Shown piece after piece: positions 40,156 through 62,170 of a DNA stretch of 64,000 nucleotides. Under the pieces are notes generated by a model. It searched no databases. It saw nothing but the letters and a program-made list of their open reading frames with translations, and was not told where the DNA came from. The stretch spans positions 62,001 to 126,000 of the forward strand of contig JAJFLA010000049.1 in the NCBI GenBank assembly GCA_021772935.1. Direction: 5' to 3'. The translations under genes were made by a program, and so were the position numbers. Position 1 is the stretch's first letter. The number at the start of each line of letters is the position of its first letter. The stretch is from Gammaproteobacteria bacterium (GTDB lineage Bacteria; Pseudomonadota; Gammaproteobacteria; Xanthomonadales; SZUA-36).

Positions 40156-40277
40156 TTAGGGAACCTCTGATCTGTTCATGAACTCATATCTCGCGTCCAA
40201 AATACCCAACTTCTTCGTGAAGCTGAACATTTTGAATCACAATCTAACTCACTCAGAATAAACCAGAGGCTCCTTAG
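40156..40277. mobile_element. IS5-like MITE with TTAG target duplication, immediately before the HCO gene
   Basis: A 114-base element at 40160-40273 begins GGAACCTCTG and ends CAGAGGCTCC; over ~20 bases the ends are imperfect inverted repeats (about 16 of 21 matching). It is flanked by TTAG on both sides (40156-40159, 40274-40277), a 4-base YTAR duplication as made by IS5-group transposases. There is no room for a transposase, hence a MITE. The right end contains AGAGG at 40265-40269, which lies 9 bases before the HCO start at 40279 and may serve as its ribosome site. The rest of the 311-base gap shows nothing else clear. Confidence 0.72.
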
Positions 40278-40278
40278 C

Positions 40279-41643
40279 ATGTCATCCGCCAAATATGATT
40301 TACATATTAGTAGCAATGCTGTCAGGCGTACCGCCACTGCCTGGCTGATACTGGGTTTGGCTTCCTTGGTTGGTGCGGGCTTGTTTTCCTTGCTATTGGT
40401 GTTGGCACGTACACCGGCAATTCAGGAGTGGCTTCCCTTCATTGATTTTTTCCGTGTGGCGCTGGTCGTGCATGTGGATCTTTCTGCGCTGATCTGGTTG
40501 TTGTCAATGGCCGGTGTTCTATGGGCGCTAAGTACTGATCGTGATTTACCTGCCTGGGACAGGGTTTCATTCTGGTTGGCAGCAGGTGGTACGGCAATGG
40601 TGGTGATTTCACCATTTGTTGGTGCCGGTGACCCCTTAATGAATAATTACGTGCCGGTTTTGCGTCATCCTGTTTTTTACACTGGCCTTGGCCTGTTCAT
40701 GGTGGGTGTGTTGTCTCACCTGATGCGCTCGGCGGTGACTTTTAGTGGCCTTTCCACACATCTGGATGGCCCTTCCGCTCTACAGGTGGGCACCAAGCTG
40801 GCTGCGTTGACTGCAGCTATTGCCATCGGTGCCTTTATTACGTCACTGGTAAGCATGCCAGGGAATATCGAGGGGCAGGCTTATTTTGAGTTCCTGTTCT
40901 GGGGTAGTGGTCATGTCATCCAGTTTACGCATACCTTGCTGATGATGGTCGCGTGGGTGGTTTTAGCGAGCAACAGCGGCTGCCGGTTTAACTTGACACC
41001 GCGACTGACGCTAACGTTTTTTATACTCATGACACTACCGGTGATCACAGTGCCATTCCTGTACATCGCACATGACGTTATCTCACCCGGTCACCGGCTT
41101 GCATTTACTGAATTAATGAAATACGGCGGCTTGTCGAGTTTGCCATTGGGTCTGGCTGTTGTCGCCAGTCTTTGGAAGGCAGTCAAGCCACAAGGGGAAG
41201 CTCGTTATTTGCGTTCTGCATTGGTTTCCTCACTGGTGCTTTTCCTTGCAGGCGGGGTGTTGGGTTTTATGATCGCCGGGCTGGATATTGTCATTCCAGC
41301 ACACTATCACGGTTCAACGGTTGGGGTGACGATAGCTTTTATGGGCTTGTGCTACTACCTGTTGCCACGCCTGGGGTTTGGTGAATTGTCGCCCCGCCTG
41401 GCTTTCTGGCAACCCATCATGTACAGCGGCGGGCAGCTTCTACACATTCTGGGTCTGGCCTGGACTGGTGGTTACGGTGTACAACGTAAGACCGCTGGCT
41501 TGGCGCAAGGTCTGGAGCACTTCAGTGAGATTGCCGGAATGGGCCTGATGGGCCTGGGTGGCTTGATCTCGGTAGTTGGTGGTTTATTATTTTTGGTGGT
41601 AGCCTACCAGTCGATACGCGGTCGAAAACTAGGAATATCCTGA
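40279..41643 (+). CDS. Divergent heme-copper oxidase subunit I (CcoN/NorB-like) with altered metal ligands
   Basis: A 454-residue protein with about 12 membrane helices. HCO landmarks: His65 in VVHVDLSALIW (helix II), His212 in GSGHVIQFTH (helix VI), and the helix-X pair His342/His344 in PAHYHGSTVG. At helix VII the usual adjacent His-His pair (GPHH in cbb3 enzymes) appears as PGHR, so Arg273 replaces one CuB ligand; His265 and His218 lie nearby. Residue +4 from His212 is Phe216, not Tyr. It therefore is unlikely to be an ordinary oxygen reductase; a NO reductase-like or other role is inferred. The 3' end overlaps a small membrane subunit gene. Confidence 0.83.
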   Translation: MSSAKYDLHISSNAVRRTATAWLILGLASLVGAGLFSLLLVLARTPAIQEWLPFIDFFRVALVVHVDLSALIWLLSMAGVLWALSTDRDLPAWDRVSFWLAAGGTAMVVISPFVGAGDPLMNNYVPVLRHPVFYTGLGLFMVGVLSHLMRSAVTFSGLSTHLDGPSALQVGTKLAALTAAIAIGAFITSLVSMPGNIEGQAYFEFLFWGSGHVIQFTHTLLMMVAWVVLASNSGCRFNLTPRLTLTFFILMTLPVITVPFLYIAHDVISPGHRLAFTELMKYGGLSSLPLGLAVVASLWKAVKPQGEARYLRSALVSSLVLFLAGGVLGFMIAGLDIVIPAHYHGSTVGVTIAFMGLCYYLLPRLGFGELSPRLAFWQPIMYSGGQLLHILGLAWTGGYGVQRKTAGLAQGLEHFSEIAGMGLMGLGGLISVVGGLLFLVVAYQSIRGRKLGIS

Positions 41644-41831
41644 TGTCAGACTTAGTTCTTTTTACTTTAAATGCAATCGTGGTTTACTTGCTGGCAGACT
41701 GGTTGGTCAGGGTGATCGAGCGGCGTCGTGGCAGCATACTGAAACAGCGTCAGGTGGTATTTTTTATCATTTTCCTGGTGTTGGTGATGACAAGTTTCCA
41801 GATTCTTCGCGGTCTGGTTGGGCCAGGTTGA
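41643..41831 (+). CDS. Small two-helix membrane protein paired with the HCO subunit
   Basis: A 62-residue protein with two hydrophobic helices (residues 4-24 and 40-58) separated by a basic loop (RVIERRRGSILKQRQ). Its ATG overlaps the HCO stop by one base (TGATG), so the two are translated together. It probably is an accessory subunit of that membrane complex. No family is recognised. Confidence 0.65.
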   Translation: MSDLVLFTLNAIVVYLLADWLVRVIERRRGSILKQRQVVFFIIFLVLVMTSFQILRGLVGPG

Positions 41832-41858
41832 AAATAATTTGATATGCGGCGCTGTGGC

Positions 41859-42251
41859 CTAACCCAGTTCGCGGTGTAAACGCGCGTCGAAACTGGCGAA
41901 ATGGCGGCCAAACCAGTCTGAAAGTTTATTCTCCAGCAGTTTTCTACCAATATCCGGGTTCTCGGAAAAACTAAACATCAGCTCGTGAATCTGATCCAGT
42001 AAGTCTTCGTGGTCGTCCTTGTGGTTTTCGTATTCAGCATAGCCCGCAGTGCGCATCAGACGTTCTTCCAATGCAAAGTGTGCAGAAATATAGGCATGGA
42101 TATCGCCCAGTACTGCTTCTATGGTTACAGCAGTCGTTGGCTGACCAAGTAGTTCATATAGCTGATTGATTTGCTCGATCATTTGCTTGTGCTCATGATC
42201 CACAGACGCATTACCGACAGAAAATGCCTGTTTCCACTCAAGCAATGCCAT
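41859..42251 (-). CDS. Bacteriohemerythrin
   Basis: A 130-residue four-helix protein with the hemerythrin di-iron ligands: HEHKQM near the start, HISAHFALEERLM-like segment (AHFALEERLM), and HKDDHEDLL. Bacteriohemerythrins bind oxygen and in some bacteria nitric oxide, and they can reduce or shuttle it. It follows the cytochrome b fusion gene by 8 bases in the same operon and meets the HCO gene end-to-end. That context suggests oxygen or NO delivery or scavenging for the respiratory module. Confidence 0.88.
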   Translation of the reverse strand: MALLEWKQAFSVGNASVDHEHKQMIEQINQLYELLGQPTTAVTIEAVLGDIHAYISAHFALEERLMRTAGYAEYENHKDDHEDLLDQIHELMFSFSENPDIGRKLLENKLSDWFGRHFASFDARLHRELG

Positions 42252-42259
42252 ATCTCCTC

Positions 42260-44311
42260 CTATTTGAAGACAAATGTTTTTTGCTGGTGATCAAACTCGA
42301 CCACAAGATGTTGACCCTGAGCCAGGGTGACACTGGTCCTGTTGCTAAAGTCAAAACCTTCCGTGCGGCCAGAATCACTCATTCCGATAAACAATTCGTG
42401 GCTGCCAGCAGCTAGCTCGATACGATTGTAGACAGTGGATTCCCCGTCCTTCCAGAAACCACTTGGCAGCAGGGTTTGATCATACATAAGCACATTATCA
42501 GCACGGAACGAAACCTTTATCGGGTAACGCTCACGCGGGCAATCGGATGGCTTACGCATATTTGGTGGCAGTTCATTGAGTTCTTTTTGTGAGAGTCTGC
42601 GGCATTGTTTTACTCGCTGGCTCGCGTGTGAAAAGGTAAGAGAAATAATGGCGTTACCAGTTTCCAGTTGGCTAAAGGGGGGCCATAGCGTGAACACGCC
42701 TGCAGCAAAAGCAAACAAACTCCAGGCCAGTGCGACCCCAACAGGTCGTAGTAACACTTTGTGGCCTTTCGGCGCCACCGATGGTTCCTTCGCCGCAACG
42801 AGGGTGTTTCGGAATGCGGTTACGGCGGCGCCTGGATTCAGAAAGTCAGACCAGGGCTCTGTCCATAATAGCGCCAGTTTCTCAATATCCACTCGCTTGC
42901 GTAGTCGTGGGTCGCGTTCACGGTCTATACGTTGTTGGGTCCATTGAGTACCGAGACGATACTGGCAGTCGCCGTTGGCACAACCGGCTAACACCACGCC
43001 ATCGGCAAGCTCACGACTGAGTATGTAATCTATAAATGATGGTGGTAGCTGTGCCATGCAGGTGAGTTTGATCACGGCGGTTGCAGCGTCATTGACGTCA
43101 TATAGCTTAGTGCTACTGTCGCAGCCAAATATTAACAAGCGCTGCTTTCCTTTCAAACCCTGGGCTGCGTCAGTGACCAATTCACGAATCATGGCAACTG
43201 ATTGATCTGGAAGATCTATCCCGGGTGACAGCACTGAACGGGTGCGGAATGGTGTTGCGGTGGGGCAGGAACCCACACAAATACCGCAACTCAGACATAA
43301 ATTAGTCAGAACAATGGCTTCTGCGGCATATTTCTGTCCATCACTGCGTGGTGCCATCTCAAGAGCCCCGAAAGGGCAGTCTTCCACGCAACGTTCACAG
43401 CCGTTGCAATTTTCAAGGTCTATACGGGCGACTGCTGGTTTTCGCCCGGGGGGCAGCCATGGCGCGAGGCACAACAGCAGACTTATAGCGATCAGCAACA
43501 GCCAGACCGCACCGGCTGGCCATGTCTTCATCAATGGGTAAACCAGCAGGTAATACCAATCCAGAGCCAGACTTTCTGGTACTGCAGCTGGGTCTGCTTT
43601 GCCTTGGCTCAGCGCCGGATAAACCAGTGATAACAATAACATCGACAATAATGCCCCGGCCATAATTGTACGTGGTGGATTAATTATAGGTCGGGTGATT
43701 CGAAATACATGAAGCCAGATACCGAATACCAGAAATATTGGCAAGCCGATAATATGTGTAAAGGCCATCAGGGTGAAAAAGCGATTACTTAATGATTCTA
43801 CGCTGAGGAAATTTCGTGCCATCGAATCGGTAAAAATTGGCAAAGCATCCAGCATTTCAGATGAAATCAGCGCGACATATAAGGCCAGTTGGTCCCACAC
43901 CAGCCAATAACCGGTGATACCCAGTGGAATGATCAGCCAAAGCAATGGTACACCGGTCATCCAGCTGAACCAGCGTGCGCTGCGATAGCGATTGAAAACA
44001 AACTCTTTGAGCAAGTGAAGAACCAGGGTGACGATGGCTGCGTCGGACGCATAACGGTGCAAACTTCGCATCACGCCACCCAGGTACCATTGATCGTTGC
44101 TCAGGTACTCAACTGATTCGTAGGCACCGTCGACGCTGGTGTGAAAAAAAATGGTAATCCAGATACCACTGACCAGCACCAGCCAAAGAAAGAAAATTGT
44201 CAACGAACCCAGATGACGCAGAGGGTTTAGTGAATTGCCAAAGACTTCGTCCAGCCACTTGTGGGGCCATTTGAAAACAAGACGACCAGTTTTTTGAATC
44301 AGCCCCAGCAT
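42260..44311 (-). CDS. Cytochrome b / two-[4Fe-4S] ferredoxin / MvhD fusion protein
   Basis: A 683-residue multidomain membrane protein. Residues 1-210 match the N-terminal half of bc1-type cytochrome b, with haem His pairs in SLHRYASDAAIVTLVLHLL and FTHIIGLPIFLVFGIWLHVF. Further helices lie at 218-285. Around 295-350 are two [4Fe-4S] motifs, CNGCERCVEDCP and CLSCGICVGSCP. Residues about 385-500 are an MvhD-like domain (LLIFGCDSS, LAGCANGDCQYRLG). Another helix near 530-555 precedes a ~120-residue beta-rich C-terminal domain. MvhD normally passes electrons between hydrogenase or dehydrogenase and heterodisulfide-type flavoproteins. Here it may link cytoplasmic ferredoxin or thiol carriers to quinone or haem. 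Partner unknown. Confidence 0.85.
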   Translation of the reverse strand: MLGLIQKTGRLVFKWPHKWLDEVFGNSLNPLRHLGSLTIFFLWLVLVSGIWITIFFHTSVDGAYESVEYLSNDQWYLGGVMRSLHRYASDAAIVTLVLHLLKEFVFNRYRSARWFSWMTGVPLLWLIIPLGITGYWLVWDQLALYVALISSEMLDALPIFTDSMARNFLSVESLSNRFFTLMAFTHIIGLPIFLVFGIWLHVFRITRPIINPPRTIMAGALLSMLLLSLVYPALSQGKADPAAVPESLALDWYYLLVYPLMKTWPAGAVWLLLIAISLLLCLAPWLPPGRKPAVARIDLENCNGCERCVEDCPFGALEMAPRSDGQKYAAEAIVLTNLCLSCGICVGSCPTATPFRTRSVLSPGIDLPDQSVAMIRELVTDAAQGLKGKQRLLIFGCDSSTKLYDVNDAATAVIKLTCMAQLPPSFIDYILSRELADGVVLAGCANGDCQYRLGTQWTQQRIDRERDPRLRKRVDIEKLALLWTEPWSDFLNPGAAVTAFRNTLVAAKEPSVAPKGHKVLLRPVGVALAWSLFAFAAGVFTLWPPFSQLETGNAIISLTFSHASQRVKQCRRLSQKELNELPPNMRKPSDCPRERYPIKVSFRADNVLMYDQTLLPSGFWKDGESTVYNRIELAAGSHELFIGMSDSGRTEGFDFSNRTSVTLAQGQHLVVEFDHQQKTFVFK

Positions 44312-44314
44312 GAT

Positions 44315-45139
44315 TCAGACGTCCTTTTTCCTTCGGCGTGCCCGGCGAATTTCTACCAATAAGTAGGTCATGACAGCAAAGATGACCAGTGCACCGATGG
44401 CGATCTGAATGAACAATGAATAGTCAAAACGGTAACGGCCAGTATTGGGGTCGTAAACGGTGCAGAATAGTCTAACCTTGTCGACAACAGCCGATAGAAA
44501 GCTATGTTCGGACTGTGGCCGATTTAACACCAGATCTTTCAGTGGTTCCATCAGCCAGGGCAATTCAAATGCGCCACCATACACCTGTTCGTAGATGACT
44601 CCGTGGCGGCCCACGATCGTCACCTGGGTGATATGGTCAAACCCGCGTGGCGTGGAAAAGTAAATAAAGCCAACGTTTTCCACCAGTTTTGCCATGTTTT
44701 CGGAGGTGCTGCTGAGAAAGCTCCAGTTTGGTTCGTCGATTCCTTGTTTGCGAGCGAAGTCGCGCATCCTCTCGGGTGTGTCGTTGGCCGTGTCAAAGCC
44801 GATGGTTACGACCTGAAAACTGGTGTCGCCAAGAGCTTCACGAGCTGCCTTAACGGAGATTTTCAGATGCTGCGTCAGGGCTGGGCATACATGGTGGCAG
44901 GATGTGAATATAAGGCTGATAAGCAAAGGTTGACCACTATAGTCACCCAGTTTGACTGAATTACCAAAGCTGTCTGTGAATTGCAGCCCGGCAAGCTGTC
45001 TACCTAAAGCAGCCTGTGATATATCGAGGGCCTGATCCTCGGTGTAGGAACCATCACTTAACTGAGCATATGCAGGTTGGCAGGTCATTGCTGTCAGCAG
45101 AATGGATATTCCAAATACTAGATTATGGAGACGACTCAC
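44315..45139 (-). CDS. SCO1/SenC-family copper chaperone
   Basis: About 274 residues. GTG 45139 is preferred because AGGTG sits 9 bases upstream; GTG 45151 is the alternative. A signal segment (FGISILLTAMTC) is followed by the thioredoxin-fold SCO domain with CHHVC (the copper-binding CxxxC) and a downstream DH in GFDHITQV. A membrane helix is near the C-terminus (IQIAIGALVIFAVMTYLLV). SCO proteins insert or reduce the CuA site, consistent with the CuA subunit encoded upstream. It precedes the cytochrome b fusion by 3 bases and has its own promoter region behind a terminator. Confidence 0.9.
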   Translation of the reverse strand: MSRLHNLVFGISILLTAMTCQPAYAQLSDGSYTEDQALDISQAALGRQLAGLQFTDSFGNSVKLGDYSGQPLLISLIFTSCHHVCPALTQHLKISVKAAREALGDTSFQVVTIGFDTANDTPERMRDFARKQGIDEPNWSFLSSTSENMAKLVENVGFIYFSTPRGFDHITQVTIVGRHGVIYEQVYGGAFELPWLMEPLKDLVLNRPQSEHSFLSAVVDKVRLFCTVYDPNTGRYRFDYSLFIQIAIGALVIFAVMTYLLVEIRRARRRKKDV

Positions 45140-45194
45140 TATGGTGATCACCTATGTTTTATGCAGTGAAATTCGGACGTCAAGTATACTCAAT

Positions 45195-45227
45195 AAAAAA
45201 CGCCGAGCATTGATGCCCGGCGTTTTT
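45195..45227. terminator. Bidirectional rho-independent terminator
   Basis: AACGCCG (45199-45205) pairs with CGGCGTT (45218-45224) and the inner GC with GC, around a short loop; A-runs before and T-runs after make it work on both strands. It ends the minus-strand HCO operon 32 bases past its last gene and separates it from the senC operon. Confidence 0.85.
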
Positions 45228-45258
45228 CGTGACCTGAGTCAGGTCTGCTACGTGCTAT

Positions 45259-46971
45259 TCAAGACATTGGCCAAACAGAGGCCAGGTACTTCCAGTTGAT
45301 CGCGTAGTAGACAACGAAAACCGCCAGGAAAAATATCGCCATGGCGAAAGTTCCCGGTGCTGCAAAGCCCCACTTGCCGGCAGCAGCGTGACCACCCTGT
45401 GGCGTTATTGTAGGCTCAGCTTTCATCAAGCGAGTGGTCTCGGTGCCATAGCTGGATTCTGATTCGACGCGTTTGCCGAAAAATACCGAAACAACAGTGA
45501 TCAGAATAAAGATCCCGCCACCCAGGATGGCCGCACTACCACTGATACCAACCAGTCCCATCAAGGTGTAAGCACTAGCTGGATAGTCGAAGCCGATGGC
45601 AGCATCGGTAAATGCCATATCCCAATGACGACGCTCTACACCCAGGGTGCCTGCCCCCATCATCATCAGTGAAAATACCATCATGCCAATGCCAAAAATA
45701 TATGGCTGCCATTTGGCCAGACCGGGTAAGAATACCTGACGCCTGAACAATACCGGGATCAGGAAGTAGGTCAGCGACATGAATGCCAGTGTGGTACCAA
45801 TTACGACCGTGGCATGAAAATGCCCTGGAACATAGATGGTGTTATGGATGATGATGTTGATCTGTTCGGTACCCATCACAACACCGGAAATTCCACCGAG
45901 AAAACCGAATCCGATCAATGACAGGAACATGCCAGAGAATACAGGGTTACCCCAGGGTGCTTTGCGTAGCCATTCGAACATGCCTTTGGTATAGCCCTTT
46001 GCGCGTTGAGCGACCTCAATAGAACCGGGTACCGTCAGGCCATGGATCATACTGGCAAGTACCGCCAGGTACATGGCGTAGGACGTGTTGAATATCTTCC
46101 AGCTGGAACTGAGTCCTGGGTCCACCAACAGGTGATGTGCGGAAGCGAGTTGCAGGAAGGCAATATACAGTACAAATGCTGTGCGACTGACCTTTTCTGA
46201 CAAGGGTTTGGCACCGAATACGATCGCAGCGATGGCATACCAGACTGACACATGCGCAGCGACGTTGATCTGTTGTGACGAGTGACCAAACGCCCACCAG
46301 ATCAGACGATACAGGGCAGCATCAATGTGGCTGATCCAACCCATCGACCACATATAGGTCGGGATCAGGATTACAGCACCCATGGCAATGGTGAAAATCG
46401 CGATGATACAGGCTGTTAATGCACCAAAAGTTACCAGTGGTATCGAGCCTTCATAGGTTTTTTCTTCTTTGGCTATAACCAGGGTGCCAAGGAAAATGAA
46501 GCAACCGATCAAAGCACCCACTGCGAACAGGATCAAGCCAAGATAAAAATTAGGATTAGCTGGCATGGGCACATAGCTGGTCATCATGACGGTTGCCTGA
46601 CCACCAAAAACCGCGAGGTTGTTGACTACAGCACCGGCAACCATCAAAAAGAAAGCAAGCCAGGCCAATCGAGGTGTTGCCAAACGGCATTTCAACAGTG
46701 TGGAGCTACAGAAATACAGCACAGCGATTTCAAAAAAGATGATCCAGAAGATCAGCATATTGATGCCATGGAAAGTCAGTAGCTGGTAAAACCGGTCAGC
46801 AGGAAGCAGGTGTACTGCGGGCCAGCGGGTCAAGGTAACAGCCAACGCGGACAATCCACCGATGAGTAGCATAACCACCGCGACCACCGCATTCATACGC
46901 ATCAACGTTTCCGCTGGCTTGTGGAATTGAAGTCCCGATTCCGGGCAGGTTCTGAATGTTTCTGTTGTCAT
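45259..46971 (-). CDS. sNOR/NorY-like heme-copper reductase subunit I (lacks cross-link Tyr)
   Basis: A 570-residue membrane protein with about 13 helices. Metal ligands: His68 (helix II, FHGINM), His230 (helix VI, WAFGHSSQQI), His279/His280 (helix VII, SAHHLL), and His384/His386 (helix X, PGHFHATVV). In A- and B-type oxygen reductases helix VI reads GHPEVY, with the Tyr four residues after His cross-linked to it. Here that position is Gln234. Loss of the tyrosine is the usual mark of NO reductases in this superfamily. The four-gene set of subunit II, subunit I, SenC and a small ORF matches norSY-senC-orf1 of ammonia oxidisers. Function as NO reductase is likely but not proven. Confidence 0.85.
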   Translation of the reverse strand: MTTETFRTCPESGLQFHKPAETLMRMNAVVAVVMLLIGGLSALAVTLTRWPAVHLLPADRFYQLLTFHGINMLIFWIIFFEIAVLYFCSSTLLKCRLATPRLAWLAFFLMVAGAVVNNLAVFGGQATVMMTSYVPMPANPNFYLGLILFAVGALIGCFIFLGTLVIAKEEKTYEGSIPLVTFGALTACIIAIFTIAMGAVILIPTYMWSMGWISHIDAALYRLIWWAFGHSSQQINVAAHVSVWYAIAAIVFGAKPLSEKVSRTAFVLYIAFLQLASAHHLLVDPGLSSSWKIFNTSYAMYLAVLASMIHGLTVPGSIEVAQRAKGYTKGMFEWLRKAPWGNPVFSGMFLSLIGFGFLGGISGVVMGTEQINIIIHNTIYVPGHFHATVVIGTTLAFMSLTYFLIPVLFRRQVFLPGLAKWQPYIFGIGMMVFSLMMMGAGTLGVERRHWDMAFTDAAIGFDYPASAYTLMGLVGISGSAAILGGGIFILITVVSVFFGKRVESESSYGTETTRLMKAEPTITPQGGHAAAGKWGFAAPGTFAMAIFFLAVFVVYYAINWKYLASVWPMS

Positions 46972-47519
46972 GATCCGCCCTCGGTGATGAAGATTTTACC
47001 TACCATGTTATGGTGACCTATGCCGCAAAACTCGTTGCAGATGATTGTCTGATCACCGCTGGTGTCCGGAGTAATGGTCAGTACCATTTCGTAACCCGGC
47101 AAGATTTGTAGATTGATGTTTTGTGGTTGCAGTGAAAAGCCATGCTGCCAGTCCATGGATGCAATATGCAGTCGGTAGGTCTGACCTTTTTCAAGCTCAA
47201 GGATCGGCCACCATTGCCACAGACGTCCAAGTAGATAGACATCGCTGCCGGGCGGTGGCTTGACGACCGGGATTTGTTGGTCAGTCTCGGTACGTACCGT
47301 GTATTGATCAACCATTGCCTGGGTCTTGGCCATGTAGGCCGCCGGGGTTGTTCTGTAAGCCTCATTTGAGAGGTTTTGTTTTCCGTAAATATGCCAGACG
47401 GGCATCATCACAAACATAATAAGGGACCATACGAGCGCGATAGCGATCCAGGTTCCTTCGACACGATCAAGTGGTTGTTTCCACCAGATTGTTTCTGCGG
47501 GTGGTTGAATAGAAGTCAC
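46968..47519 (-). CDS. CuA-containing subunit II of the sNOR-like complex
   Basis: A 183-residue protein with one N-terminal membrane helix (GTWIAIALVWSLIMFVMMPVW) and a periplasmic cupredoxin domain. All CuA ligands are present: His126 in DWQHGFSLQP, and Cys161, Glu163, Cys165, His169, Met172 in CNEFCGIGHHNM. It would accept electrons from a c-type cytochrome and pass them to subunit I. Its stop overlaps the subunit I start. No cytochrome c domain is fused. Confidence 0.9.
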   Translation of the reverse strand: MTSIQPPAETIWWKQPLDRVEGTWIAIALVWSLIMFVMMPVWHIYGKQNLSNEAYRTTPAAYMAKTQAMVDQYTVRTETDQQIPVVKPPPGSDVYLLGRLWQWWPILELEKGQTYRLHIASMDWQHGFSLQPQNINLQILPGYEMVLTITPDTSGDQTIICNEFCGIGHHNMVGKIFITEGGS

Positions 47520-47540
47520 ATTTTCACCTATTGATAATTG

Positions 47541-47705
47541 TTAATTGGCCAGAGGAATAGTTACCAGCTCCATGATGCCCCAGACCACGTAAAAAACGGT
47601 TGGGAATACGACTCCGATGAACAATAATAAGAAAGGATTATCTATGATGCGTTGCATGACTGGAACACGTTCTGTTGGTTGCGTATCCGGTGTTTCCTGG
47701 CTCAT
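47541..47705 (-). CDS. Small membrane subunit of the sNOR-like operon
   Basis: About 54 residues from ATG 47705, with GGGAG about 10 bases upstream; a frame to 47723 is less likely. Hydrophilic N-terminus, then one membrane helix (FLLLFIGVVFPTVFYVVWGI). It is the first gene of the operon, 21 bases before subunit II. Small helix subunits of this kind are common in HCO operons. No family is recognised. Confidence 0.72.
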   Translation of the reverse strand: MSQETPDTQPTERVPVMQRIIDNPFLLLFIGVVFPTVFYVVWGIMELVTIPLAN

Positions 47706-47755
47706 TAATACTAACTCCCACATAATTGTTTATGTTTAAACTAAAAAGATGCTCT

Positions 47756-47804
47756 CAGCATAACATTAGCATGGTAATTTTTGCCAGTGAATGACGTAGG
47801 TCAA
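47756..47804 (-). promoter_or_regulatory. DNR/NnrR-like box and promoter of the sNOR-like operon
   Basis: On the minus strand TTGAC-CTAC-GTCAT occupies 47804-47791, matching the Crp/Fnr-type NO-sensor consensus (TTGAY-N4-RTCAA) at all but the last base. TAATGT at 47768-47763 is a plausible -10. The transcript start it implies (about 47756) places the box centre at -41.5, the class II activator position of FNR and DNR. The divergent lipoprotein gene shares this region. Confidence 0.65.
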
Positions 47805-47871
47805 TTACAATTGTCTTATTGTTGGTTTAGTCTTCGCCGGGAAGTCTGGAAACTTGGAAAGTTGAGAATAT

Positions 47872-48537
47872 ATGAAGTATAAAAAATTATTGGGGGCAAA
47901 TTATCTAAGGTTATTGCCAGTGGTTGTGGCCTTAATTTTATTATATGGCTGTAATAAGGATAGTGGTCCCGGACCGGGAATCCATGATACAAAATACTTA
48001 CTTATCGGTCCTGATGGACAGCCGGTTGAAGGCATGCCGGGTGAAAATGACTGTGTGCTCGACCAGTTTTTTGGCCTGGTATGGGAGATCAAATCCGACC
48101 AACCCGGTTTGCGGAACTGGCGACATACCTATAGTTGGTACAACCCGGACGAGTCCTTTGATGGCGAGCTGGATTATCGCGGCGTGAAAAATGGCGGTAG
48201 TTGTATTAGCGACGATTGTGATACGACGGCGTACGTGCAGGCGGTCAATGCGACTGGTTACTGCGGACACAGTGATTGGCGCATGCCGACACGTGATGAA
48301 CTGGGTTCTATCAGTGACCCGCGCAAGATTGAAAACCCACCAACTGCCAATCTGGCTATTTTCCCTTACACCCAGGCTGAAGAATACTGGTCCAGCAATG
48401 ATTATCAATTCCAATATGATACTGCCTGGCGTTGGAATTTTAAGTTCGGCCATGACCGGGTCGACTGGAAGGCCAGTCCGGCGCGGGTGCGTTTGGTCAG
48501 GGGCAAGGCAGCAATGTTGCCAAGGATCAAGGAGTAG
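47872..48537 (+). CDS. DUF1566-domain lipoprotein
   Basis: A 221-residue protein with a lipoprotein signal (VVALILLYGC, acylated Cys near residue 26). The body has FGLVWEIKSD, DWRMPTRDELGSI and YWSSNDYQ, the hallmarks of DUF1566/Lcl C-terminal-type domains. Such domains are found in many surface lipoproteins of unknown role. It diverges from the sNOR-like operon and is followed by ctaA 6 bases on, so it may share their control. Confidence 0.8.
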   Translation: MKYKKLLGANYLRLLPVVVALILLYGCNKDSGPGPGIHDTKYLLIGPDGQPVEGMPGENDCVLDQFFGLVWEIKSDQPGLRNWRHTYSWYNPDESFDGELDYRGVKNGGSCISDDCDTTAYVQAVNATGYCGHSDWRMPTRDELGSISDPRKIENPPTANLAIFPYTQAEEYWSSNDYQFQYDTAWRWNFKFGHDRVDWKASPARVRLVRGKAAMLPRIKE

Positions 48538-48543
48538 GCAGAG

Positions 48544-49530
48544 GTGAAGGCGCTGGTTCGAATTTCATTGTTATTTGTCATCGTACTCGTGTCTTTGAGT
48601 GCTTACCTCCGTTTGGCCCATTCCGGTATTGGCTGTGCTGACTGGCCAGCTTGTTATGGCCGCATTGGTGAACCACAGGCTGTGACTCAACTGGTTTCCA
48701 GCGAGAATGCTTACCAGCGTATTTTAGCTGAAGCCAGTCAACCACTGGCTTGGGCTACGCCTTTGCACCGGTTCGTAGCCAGCGTTTTGGGTCTGTTGAT
48801 TGTGTTTCTGGCGATGTTGTCAATCAAGCGCAATAAGCATTGGTTGATTTCGTTGGTGCTGTTAGGTCTTACCGTCTTTTTGGCACTACTCGGGCTGAAG
48901 TCAGGTGGTCTTCATAGCCCGGCCGTTGTGATGGGTAATCTCTGCGGCGGTTTTCTGATGTTGGGTCTTTTGGGCTGGATGTTGTTTAAGCAAAGCGATG
49001 GCAAAAGAGAAGATGAAACCAGCCCACCCAAAAGTATATTGCCTGGCAGGTTTGTTTCAGCAGCTGTTGTTCTTCTGATCGCGCAAATACTGATCGGTGG
49101 TTTGACCAGTGCTAATTTTGCCGCCACTTCGTGCCAGACCTTACCTGACTGTCACGGTCGCTGGTTGCCTGGTAAAGCGGTCTGGAAAGCTATGGATTTA
49201 TCAATAAATCATCAAGTTACACCGGCGGGACAGGTCATTGGTGGCCAGGAACGGACTGACATCCACATAACACATCGCCTGCTCGGGTTTGTAACTACCT
49301 TGGCTTTGTTGCTTATCGGGCTAATGGCCTGGAGGGCTAATGGCAGACTTCGAGTTGCAGGCACGATGGTGTTTTTGCTCGTATTGATGGAGTTTTTGAT
49401 CGGAATTGCTGCCGTTGCGTCAGATTTGCCCATCGGCTTGGCTGTAGCTCACAATTGGCTGGCGGCTTTGTTGCTACTGACCATGTTGAAAATTGTAGTT
49501 CTTAATCGCAAACCCCCAGCGGTCAGATAA
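48544..49530 (+). CDS. ctaA: COX15/CtaA-family heme A synthase
   Basis: A 328-residue membrane protein with about eight helices in two halves. Family features: YLRLAHSGIGCADWPACYGR, the histidines ATPLHRFVASVLG and DIHITHRLLGF, and a second GLTSANFAATSCQTLPDCHGRW segment with paired cysteines. It oxidises heme O to heme A in the inner membrane. The start is GTG 48544. Its position beside the sNOR-like HCO suggests that complex may carry heme A-type cofactors; no ctaB is visible in the window. Confidence 0.88.
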   Translation: MKALVRISLLFVIVLVSLSAYLRLAHSGIGCADWPACYGRIGEPQAVTQLVSSENAYQRILAEASQPLAWATPLHRFVASVLGLLIVFLAMLSIKRNKHWLISLVLLGLTVFLALLGLKSGGLHSPAVVMGNLCGGFLMLGLLGWMLFKQSDGKREDETSPPKSILPGRFVSAAVVLLIAQILIGGLTSANFAATSCQTLPDCHGRWLPGKAVWKAMDLSINHQVTPAGQVIGGQERTDIHITHRLLGFVTTLALLLIGLMAWRANGRLRVAGTMVFLLVLMEFLIGIAAVASDLPIGLAVAHNWLAALLLLTMLKIVVLNRKPPAVR

Positions 49531-61720: not shown

Positions 61721-62170
61721 TTGGGAAGCATAAGTCTTTATCAATTGAAAGGCACTGCAGGCAGTGTCATCAACCAGTCGTTCCCGTTCAGGGAGTCAAT
61801 TGTGCTGGGATCATCTTCAAACTGTGATGTACAGCTCGATGAGGCGGGTGTCGCAGCGCGGCATGCTGAAATTCGCCTGATCGACGGTAAGTCATTGCTG
61901 TTGAAAGACCTGGGTTCTGAGGCCGGCACCTTGCGCAATGGTGAGCGGGTCGTGGAAACACTGCTGGCGTCTGGTGACGAAATCCGCATCGGCACCTGTC
62001 GCTGGATGTTACAGGCACCGGGTCTCCGGCCAGGGCGTGTCCTGACCGCTGATGTGCTTAGAAAGTCAACACGTCGCTGGCCGCGTGTATTGGTTTGGAC
62101 CCTTTTGTTTACATCAGCCGCTGCTGTGGCTGTGCTCAAGTGGAAACCGGAGTGGTTGAATATCTTTTAA
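61721..62170 (+). CDS. FHA-domain protein with C-terminal membrane helix
   Basis: About 149 residues from an apparent TTG 61721; no ATG or GTG is available in frame, so the start is uncertain. The FHA core is visible (IVLGSSSNCDVQLDEAGVAARHAEI split over two lines, DLGSEAGTLRNGERV). FHA domains bind phosphothreonine. A helix near the end (VLVWTLLFTSAAAVAVLKW) anchors it to the membrane. No partner kinase is seen nearby. Confidence 0.75.
   Translation: MGSISLYQLKGTAGSVINQSFPFRESIVLGSSSNCDVQLDEAGVAARHAEIRLIDGKSLLLKDLGSEAGTLRNGERVVETLLASGDEIRIGTCRWMLQAPGLRPGRVLTADVLRKSTRRWPRVLVWTLLFTSAAAVAVLKWKPEWLNIF

Follow-up and report, generated by a model that had tools for sequence, protein, structure and literature searches.

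The DNA considered here is a window of 64,000 nucleotides, positions 62,001 to 126,000 of the forward strand of contig JAJFLA010000049.1, in the 3.96 Mb genome of a Gammaproteobacteria bacterium (GCA_021772935.1). Between positions 40156 and 49530 of the window lies a gene cluster built around two proteins of heme-copper fold, HCO1 and HCO2, the second of which is a candidate nitric oxide (NO) reductase of the eNOR type. A sequence-only reading of this DNA had taken the cluster for an NO-reducing respiratory module. The genes that it named are all intact open reading frames, and the module is conserved.

The core of the cluster is an operon on the - strand. It begins with a 60-amino-acid (60-aa) small membrane subunit (47541-47723) and continues with subunit II (SII, 46968-47519), HCO2 (570 aa, 45259-46971), an SCO1/SenC copper chaperone with a CxxxC motif (44315-45151), a fusion of cytochrome b, a 2[4Fe-4S] ferredoxin and FlpD/MvhD that ends in a beta-rich domain (42260-44311), and a bacteriohemerythrin (41859-42251). 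HCO1 (454 aa, 40279-41643) and a 62-aa small membrane protein (41643-41831) lie on the + strand facing the operon, and an Lcl_C-domain protein (47872-48537, +), which is kept in close relatives, and a CtaA/Cox15 heme A synthase (48544-49530, +) diverge from it. The divergent intergenic region carries a DNR/FNR-type box (47791-47804). Pfam matches above the curated cut-offs were obtained to COX1 for HCO1 (55.7 bits) and HCO2 (227.9 bits), and to Hemerythrin, to Cytochrome_B, Fer4 and FlpD, to SCO1-SenC and to COX15-CtaA for the corresponding genes. SII has no Pfam match, and its NCBIfam matches to CoxB and to the CuA part of NosZ all fall below the curated cut-offs; it does carry the CuA motif C...C...H..M. 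The 60-aa and 62-aa membrane proteins match no Pfam or NCBIfam family, but both are conserved in relatives, the latter in close ones.

Assignment of HCO2 and subunit II

The HCO2 alignment comprises 81 sequences, the window copy and those of 80 named loci. Throughout, the six histidines of the heme and CuB sites (H68, H230, H279, H280, H384 and H386) are invariant, position 234, the site of the cross-link tyrosine, is glutamine, and an arginine pair is likewise invariant. The CuA motif is found in 80 of 80 SII sequences, and SII precedes HCO2 in all 76 loci whose sequence extends 1 kb or more upstream. In Table A4 of PMC8756737 the residue at the tyrosine position is Gln in eNOR, Asn in sNOR and CuANOR, Asp in gNOR and Glu in cNOR and qNOR. 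The Glu of cNOR and qNOR is thus lacking from both HCO2 (Gln) and HCO1 (mostly Phe), as is the Asn of sNOR. An assignment of HCO2 to sNOR was ruled out because it has Gln where the published sNOR residue is Asn, and the parallel once drawn to the norSY-senC-orf1 layout of sNOR falls with it.

A tree of 70 sequences was built with IQ-TREE; five aligned sequences were excluded from it, and it contained no sequence that its own authors had labelled eNOR. HCO2 forms with Gln-bearing homologues from Thermus, Thermomicrobium and Defluviimonas a clade of 19 (ultrafast bootstrap, UFB, 100), which is nested in the B-family lineage (UFB 100). By sequence, HCO2 and the CuA-containing SII are an eNOR-type NO reductase, and NO would be the substrate of HCO2. 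A member of the eNOR family from Rhodothermus marinus has been characterised.

HCO1, a heme-copper fold without a conserved CuB histidine pair

HCO1 has the multi-helix heme-copper fold and the histidine ligands of two hemes. Its AlphaFold2 (AF2) model (mean per-residue confidence, pLDDT, 89.9) has a ba3 oxidase as its best PDB match (TM score 0.71), and comparison of the HCO1 and HCO2 profiles gave a probability of 99.5%. A sequence search of the PDB with the HCO1 profile and a tblastn search of plasmids with HCO1 both returned no match. In the tree HCO1 is monophyletic (39 tips, UFB 100) and the sister of eNOR (UFB 99); its stem is long, so long-branch effects are possible.

Eight residues, H65, H212, Q215, H342, H344, H389, R403 and K404, are invariant in the 91 aligned HCO1 sequences, among which the window copy is included twice (as the window and as L135). 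The only invariant histidine of CuB type is that of helix VI, H212; the helix VII-VIII segment has no position with an invariant histidine. Within that segment H272 is present in 79 of 91 sequences and D or E at 266 in 66, the substitutes being A, P, S, T, G, H or a gap at 266 and F, Y, Q, S, N or A at 272. Two adjacent histidines occur somewhere in the segment in seven sequences, L127 having them at 265 and 266. At position 216, the tyrosine site, Phe is found in 87 sequences, Tyr in three and Leu in one, and Gln in none; the invariant Gln 215 sits one residue before. The three heme histidines are H65, H342 and H344. Given these invariants and the lack of an invariant histidine in the helix VII-VIII segment, the heme ligands look to be kept, whereas a three-histidine CuB site is not conserved. 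A divergent HCO1 relative outside the 91-sequence set (L169:1592-3007) also lacks the helix II heme histidine.

The sequence-only reading counted two catalytic heme-copper subunits. This has to be revised, as only HCO2 has a conserved heme-CuB site; HCO1 keeps its heme ligands and the helix VI histidine, and without a conserved CuB histidine pair it was rejected as a second normal catalytic subunit. A replacement of the CuB histidine pair by His-Asp, suggested by close relatives, was given up: in the wider set both positions vary, and the alignment of HCO1 with HCO2 is ambiguous there. As a paralogue of the eNOR subunit from which CuB has been lost, HCO1 most likely accompanies heme-A-type enzymes, as a diheme protein of electron transfer or in their assembly.

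Co-occurrence, electron entry and control

Among 61 genomes, the window's own and 60 relatives, HCO2 occurs in 11 (100% identity for the own copy, 70-94% for the others) and the fusion in the same 11. Strong HCO2 matches were found in 34 of 369 genomes of the class, the own genome included and G419 (2.5e-61) excluded. The fusion is present in 33 of these 34 but in only 1 of the 335 without HCO2, G158 with the C-terminal domain only being left out of the fusion genomes; this is far above chance, and the neighbourhood check upholds the expectation that the gene set co-occurs across genomes. In 52 named loci the sequence extends 8.9 kb or more downstream of HCO2; of these, 51 contain SCO, 51 the C-terminal domain, 50 the FlpD fusion, 47 HCO1, 33 CtaA and 12 the hemerythrin. 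In L068 and in the Defluviimonas locus L185 the gene between HCO2 and SCO, which the window lacks there, encodes a UbiA-type heme O synthase, whose cluster is found in 34 of the 80 loci.

HCO1 was found in 47 of the 369 genomes (weakly in G120), namely in 28 of the 34 with HCO2 and in 19 without a strong HCO2 match, and because of these 19 the idea of HCO1 as an obligate part of eNOR was rejected. Two of them (G158 and G273) are incomplete genomes that retain parts of the eNOR cluster. By Pfam scans of single representatives, HCO1 without eNOR lies beside caa3-type clusters (L165, L173, L175, L181) or another ctaD (L172, L178), beside CtaA (L171, L173, L178, L179, L181), beside a sigma-70-family gene (L167, L170), or beside TPR and thioredoxin-like genes that may serve cytochrome c maturation (L174, L180). 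In a genome of the same genus (locus L052), HCO1, hemerythrin and CtaA stand beside parC with no eNOR operon there, an arrangement from which it follows that the sub-modules are separable. The idea of a single module therefore holds for HCO2, SII, SCO and the cytochrome b/ferredoxin/FlpD fusion, whilst HCO1 and CtaA are common yet separable members.

The fusion is likely to be an electron-entry protein dedicated to eNOR. Its four b-heme histidines, eight ferredoxin cysteines and four FlpD cysteines are invariant in 11 of 11 sequences, and its AF2 model (pLDDT 88.5) matches the cytochrome b of the bc1 and b6f complexes. The topology of cytochrome b is established and places the attached Fe-S and FlpD parts on the cytoplasmic side; the C-terminal beta-rich domain, which follows one extra helix, would be periplasmic. 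Many named loci encode this domain by a gene of its own, and so do G016 and G026, where two genes take the place of the fusion and HCO1 comes directly next on the same strand. A second fusion, of cytochrome b to Fer2, FAD and NAD domains, is present in at least 41 of the 80 named eNOR loci and occurs together with the first in at least 37, counts that are lower bounds because contigs are cut; its domain content is taken from two examples (L078:16954-18843 and L115:13194-15236). In these, a PetB-like cytochrome b is joined to 2Fe-2S, FAD and NAD(P)H-binding domains. Such a protein is possibly an NAD(P)H-fed membrane reductase, and its frequency points to NAD(P)H-fed entry. The earlier supposition of electron entry from quinone or a soluble carrier gains a likely dedicated protein, for which we infer both the direction of electron flow and the role of donor.

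The box differs by one mismatch from the DNR consensus TTGAYN4RTCAA (taken from PMC1274295). Across the window, matches to the box are not above chance: there are 16 where 9.9 are expected, and 6 of 100 shuffles reach 16. The box derives its significance instead from conservation, since it is found with at most one mismatch upstream of 47 of 76 orthologous eNOR operons and of none of 54 HCO1 genes. The corresponding counts are 0/41 for SCO, 2/80 for HCO2, 3/60 for the C-terminal domain of the fusion, 5/79 for SII, 6/32 for CtaA and 21/107 for the cytochrome b fusions. DNR-like control of one operon, as first proposed, is supported by this distribution. The Lcl_C-domain gene shares the intergenic box with the eNOR operon.

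The genomic context points to NO formation from nitrite. A match to Cytochrom_D1 (PF02239, which also picks up NirN and NirF) is present in 31 of the 34 HCO2 genomes compared with 43 of the 335 others (Fisher 2e-21, not corrected for kinship), and, by the coordinates of the d1 matches listed, at least 13 of the 34 have a d1 gene no more than 20 kb from HCO2 on one contig. On a Thermus plasmid the Gln-type homologue is 3.6 kb from nirS, with cytochrome c552 and an Rrf2 regulator nearby. The window genome has four COX1 genes, by motif aa3, cbb3, HCO2 and HCO1, so HCO2 is the only NO reductase candidate found in it; cNOR and qNOR would match the Pfam COX1 model. The clade II NosZ model, the only NosZ model used, matched just the CuA part of SII. 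NirS itself is encoded in this genome (L197:6887-8998, on contig C37), with two cytochrome c domains preceding d1, an extended form similar in kind to the architecture that PMC8756737 reports for Chloroflexi.

Proposed mechanism, its rivals and known systems

The family placement, ligands, co-occurrence and conserved box are established at the level of sequence, and for HCO2 an NO-reducing heme-copper module is strongly supported by sequence and context. The whole is probably best explained by an eNOR with a cytochrome b/Fe-S donor, d1-derived NO, DNR/FNR control and a CuB-less companion, HCO1. HCO2, SII and the 60-aa subunit would make up a CuA-containing eNOR-type reductase that turns NO from cytochrome cd1 nitrite reductase into nitrous oxide (N2O), its operon being activated by a DNR/FNR-type regulator. 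SCO may aid copper loading and CtaA the making of the heme of HCO2. The fusion would act as the dedicated donor of eNOR, with two b hemes across the membrane through which electrons of a cytoplasmic flavoprotein or of quinol could reach the periplasmic side, and HCO1 would be a companion protein with no second reductase activity.

Several observations weigh against this explanation. The assignment as an NO reductase draws on sequence and context, and HCO2 could reduce O2. The homologue on the Thermus plasmid (L186:11983-13668), which is outside the 81-sequence set, has lysine where the second histidine of helix X (386) is expected. No d1 match was found in three of the 34 HCO2 genomes (G170, G179 and G286), G170 and G286 having NirK-like matches far below the cut-off; a d1 match is not always NirS, as the profile takes NirN and NirF too, and the Fisher tests ignore kinship among genomes. 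Six of the 34 HCO2 genomes lack HCO1, as does the Defluviimonas plasmid, and it is present in 19 genomes without a strong HCO2 match. A partner for FlpD was not found in the window cluster, and the box does not separate DNR from FNR.

If HCO2 does reduce O2, it might be a high-affinity B-family oxygen reductase that tolerates NO or protects against it. Such an enzyme would fit the place of HCO2 within the B-family lineage, and in the PDB the sequences that match HCO2 best are those of a cytochrome c oxidase subunit I (7deg) and of the ba3 oxidases; the sNOR of Nitrosomonas europaea, too, has been argued to be perhaps a terminal oxidase (PMC6967387). Yet the cross-link tyrosine is absent from all 81 sequences, the link to d1 is strong and the Thermus copy lies in a nirS neighbourhood, oxidases of aa3 and cbb3 type are already present in the window genome, and eNOR appears in PMC11388526 among the biochemically characterised NO reductases. 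An oxygen reductase is accordingly quite improbable.

The role of HCO1 admits more latitude. One could imagine it as a further reductase in its own right, its non-heme metal site rebuilt from H212, His272 and Asp/Glu266, for example an iron NO reductase or an NO-binding protein: the window copy and its close relatives have all three residues, and the link to d1 persists in HCO1 genomes without HCO2 (11 of 19, against 32 of 316 others). Positions 266 and 272 are not strictly conserved, however, and no CuA or cytochrome c subunit of its own was seen beside HCO1, which make this an unlikely reading. HCO1 might also help to assemble heme-A enzymes (eNOR, aa3) or to handle their heme, acting with CtaA and SCO, since CtaA adjoins it in several loci with or without eNOR and since it has as neighbours caa3-type clusters in which ctaB-, surf1- and cox11-like genes occur. 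But of 54 named loci only 9 have CtaA less than 1 kb from HCO1; 23 have it elsewhere in the locus, and in 22 it was not seen (the counts of CtaA are lower bounds, since many contigs are cut short and close relatives supplied the profile). Some HCO1 genes are near sigma-factor or TPR/thioredoxin-like genes instead; this reading is less likely than not. Extending the preferred reading, an eNOR with a CuB-less companion, one may tentatively propose, in a form somewhat more apt to be wrong than right, that HCO1 founds a widespread class of CuB-less heme-copper-fold proteins of diheme electron transfer or heme/NO handling, and that with both cytochrome b fusions it forms an eNOR supercomplex that draws its electrons from reductant in the cytoplasm without passage through bc1 and cytochrome c.

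NO reductases are a main biological source of N2O, and the module bears on its formation by bacteria. The eNOR family is among the least studied of these enzymes; the module would provide it with a likely electron donor and regulation, and, in Beta- and Gammaproteobacteria, connects it with nitrite reduction by cytochrome cd1. The best-matching subunits in plasmid records, among the matches listed, are named cytochrome oxidases. HCO1 poses a testable question, namely what job a heme-copper fold performs after loss of its copper site. Among the papers listed by searches of the open-licence PubMed Central literature, no description was found of CuB-less heme-copper homologues or of MvhD with an NO reductase; measured against that literature, what is new is HCO1 together with the cytochrome b fusions.

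The likeness to eNOR, as set out in PMC8756737 and PMC11388526, lies in a subunit I with six histidines and Gln, a cupredoxin-type subunit II and the B-family placement; in the window these stand with the cytochrome b/ferredoxin/FlpD fusion, the hemerythrin, the DNR-type box and, as is usual in these loci, the CuB-less HCO1. With sNOR the cluster shares a cupredoxin subunit II, a B-family subunit I and an SCO/SenC gene, but sNOR has Asn at the tyrosine position (PMC8756737) and no cytochrome b/ferredoxin/FlpD fusion figures in the part of the sNOR account used here. The ba3 oxygen reductases of the B family are of the same fold and lineage as HCO2 and HCO1, but have the tyrosine and oxygen chemistry where HCO2 has Gln and HCO1 no conserved CuB histidine pair. 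The domains and ligands of the fusion are common to FlpD/MvhD electron-transfer proteins and to the cytochrome b of bc1 and b6f; what sets it apart is the joining of a PetB-like cytochrome b, 2[4Fe-4S] and FlpD beside an NO reductase.

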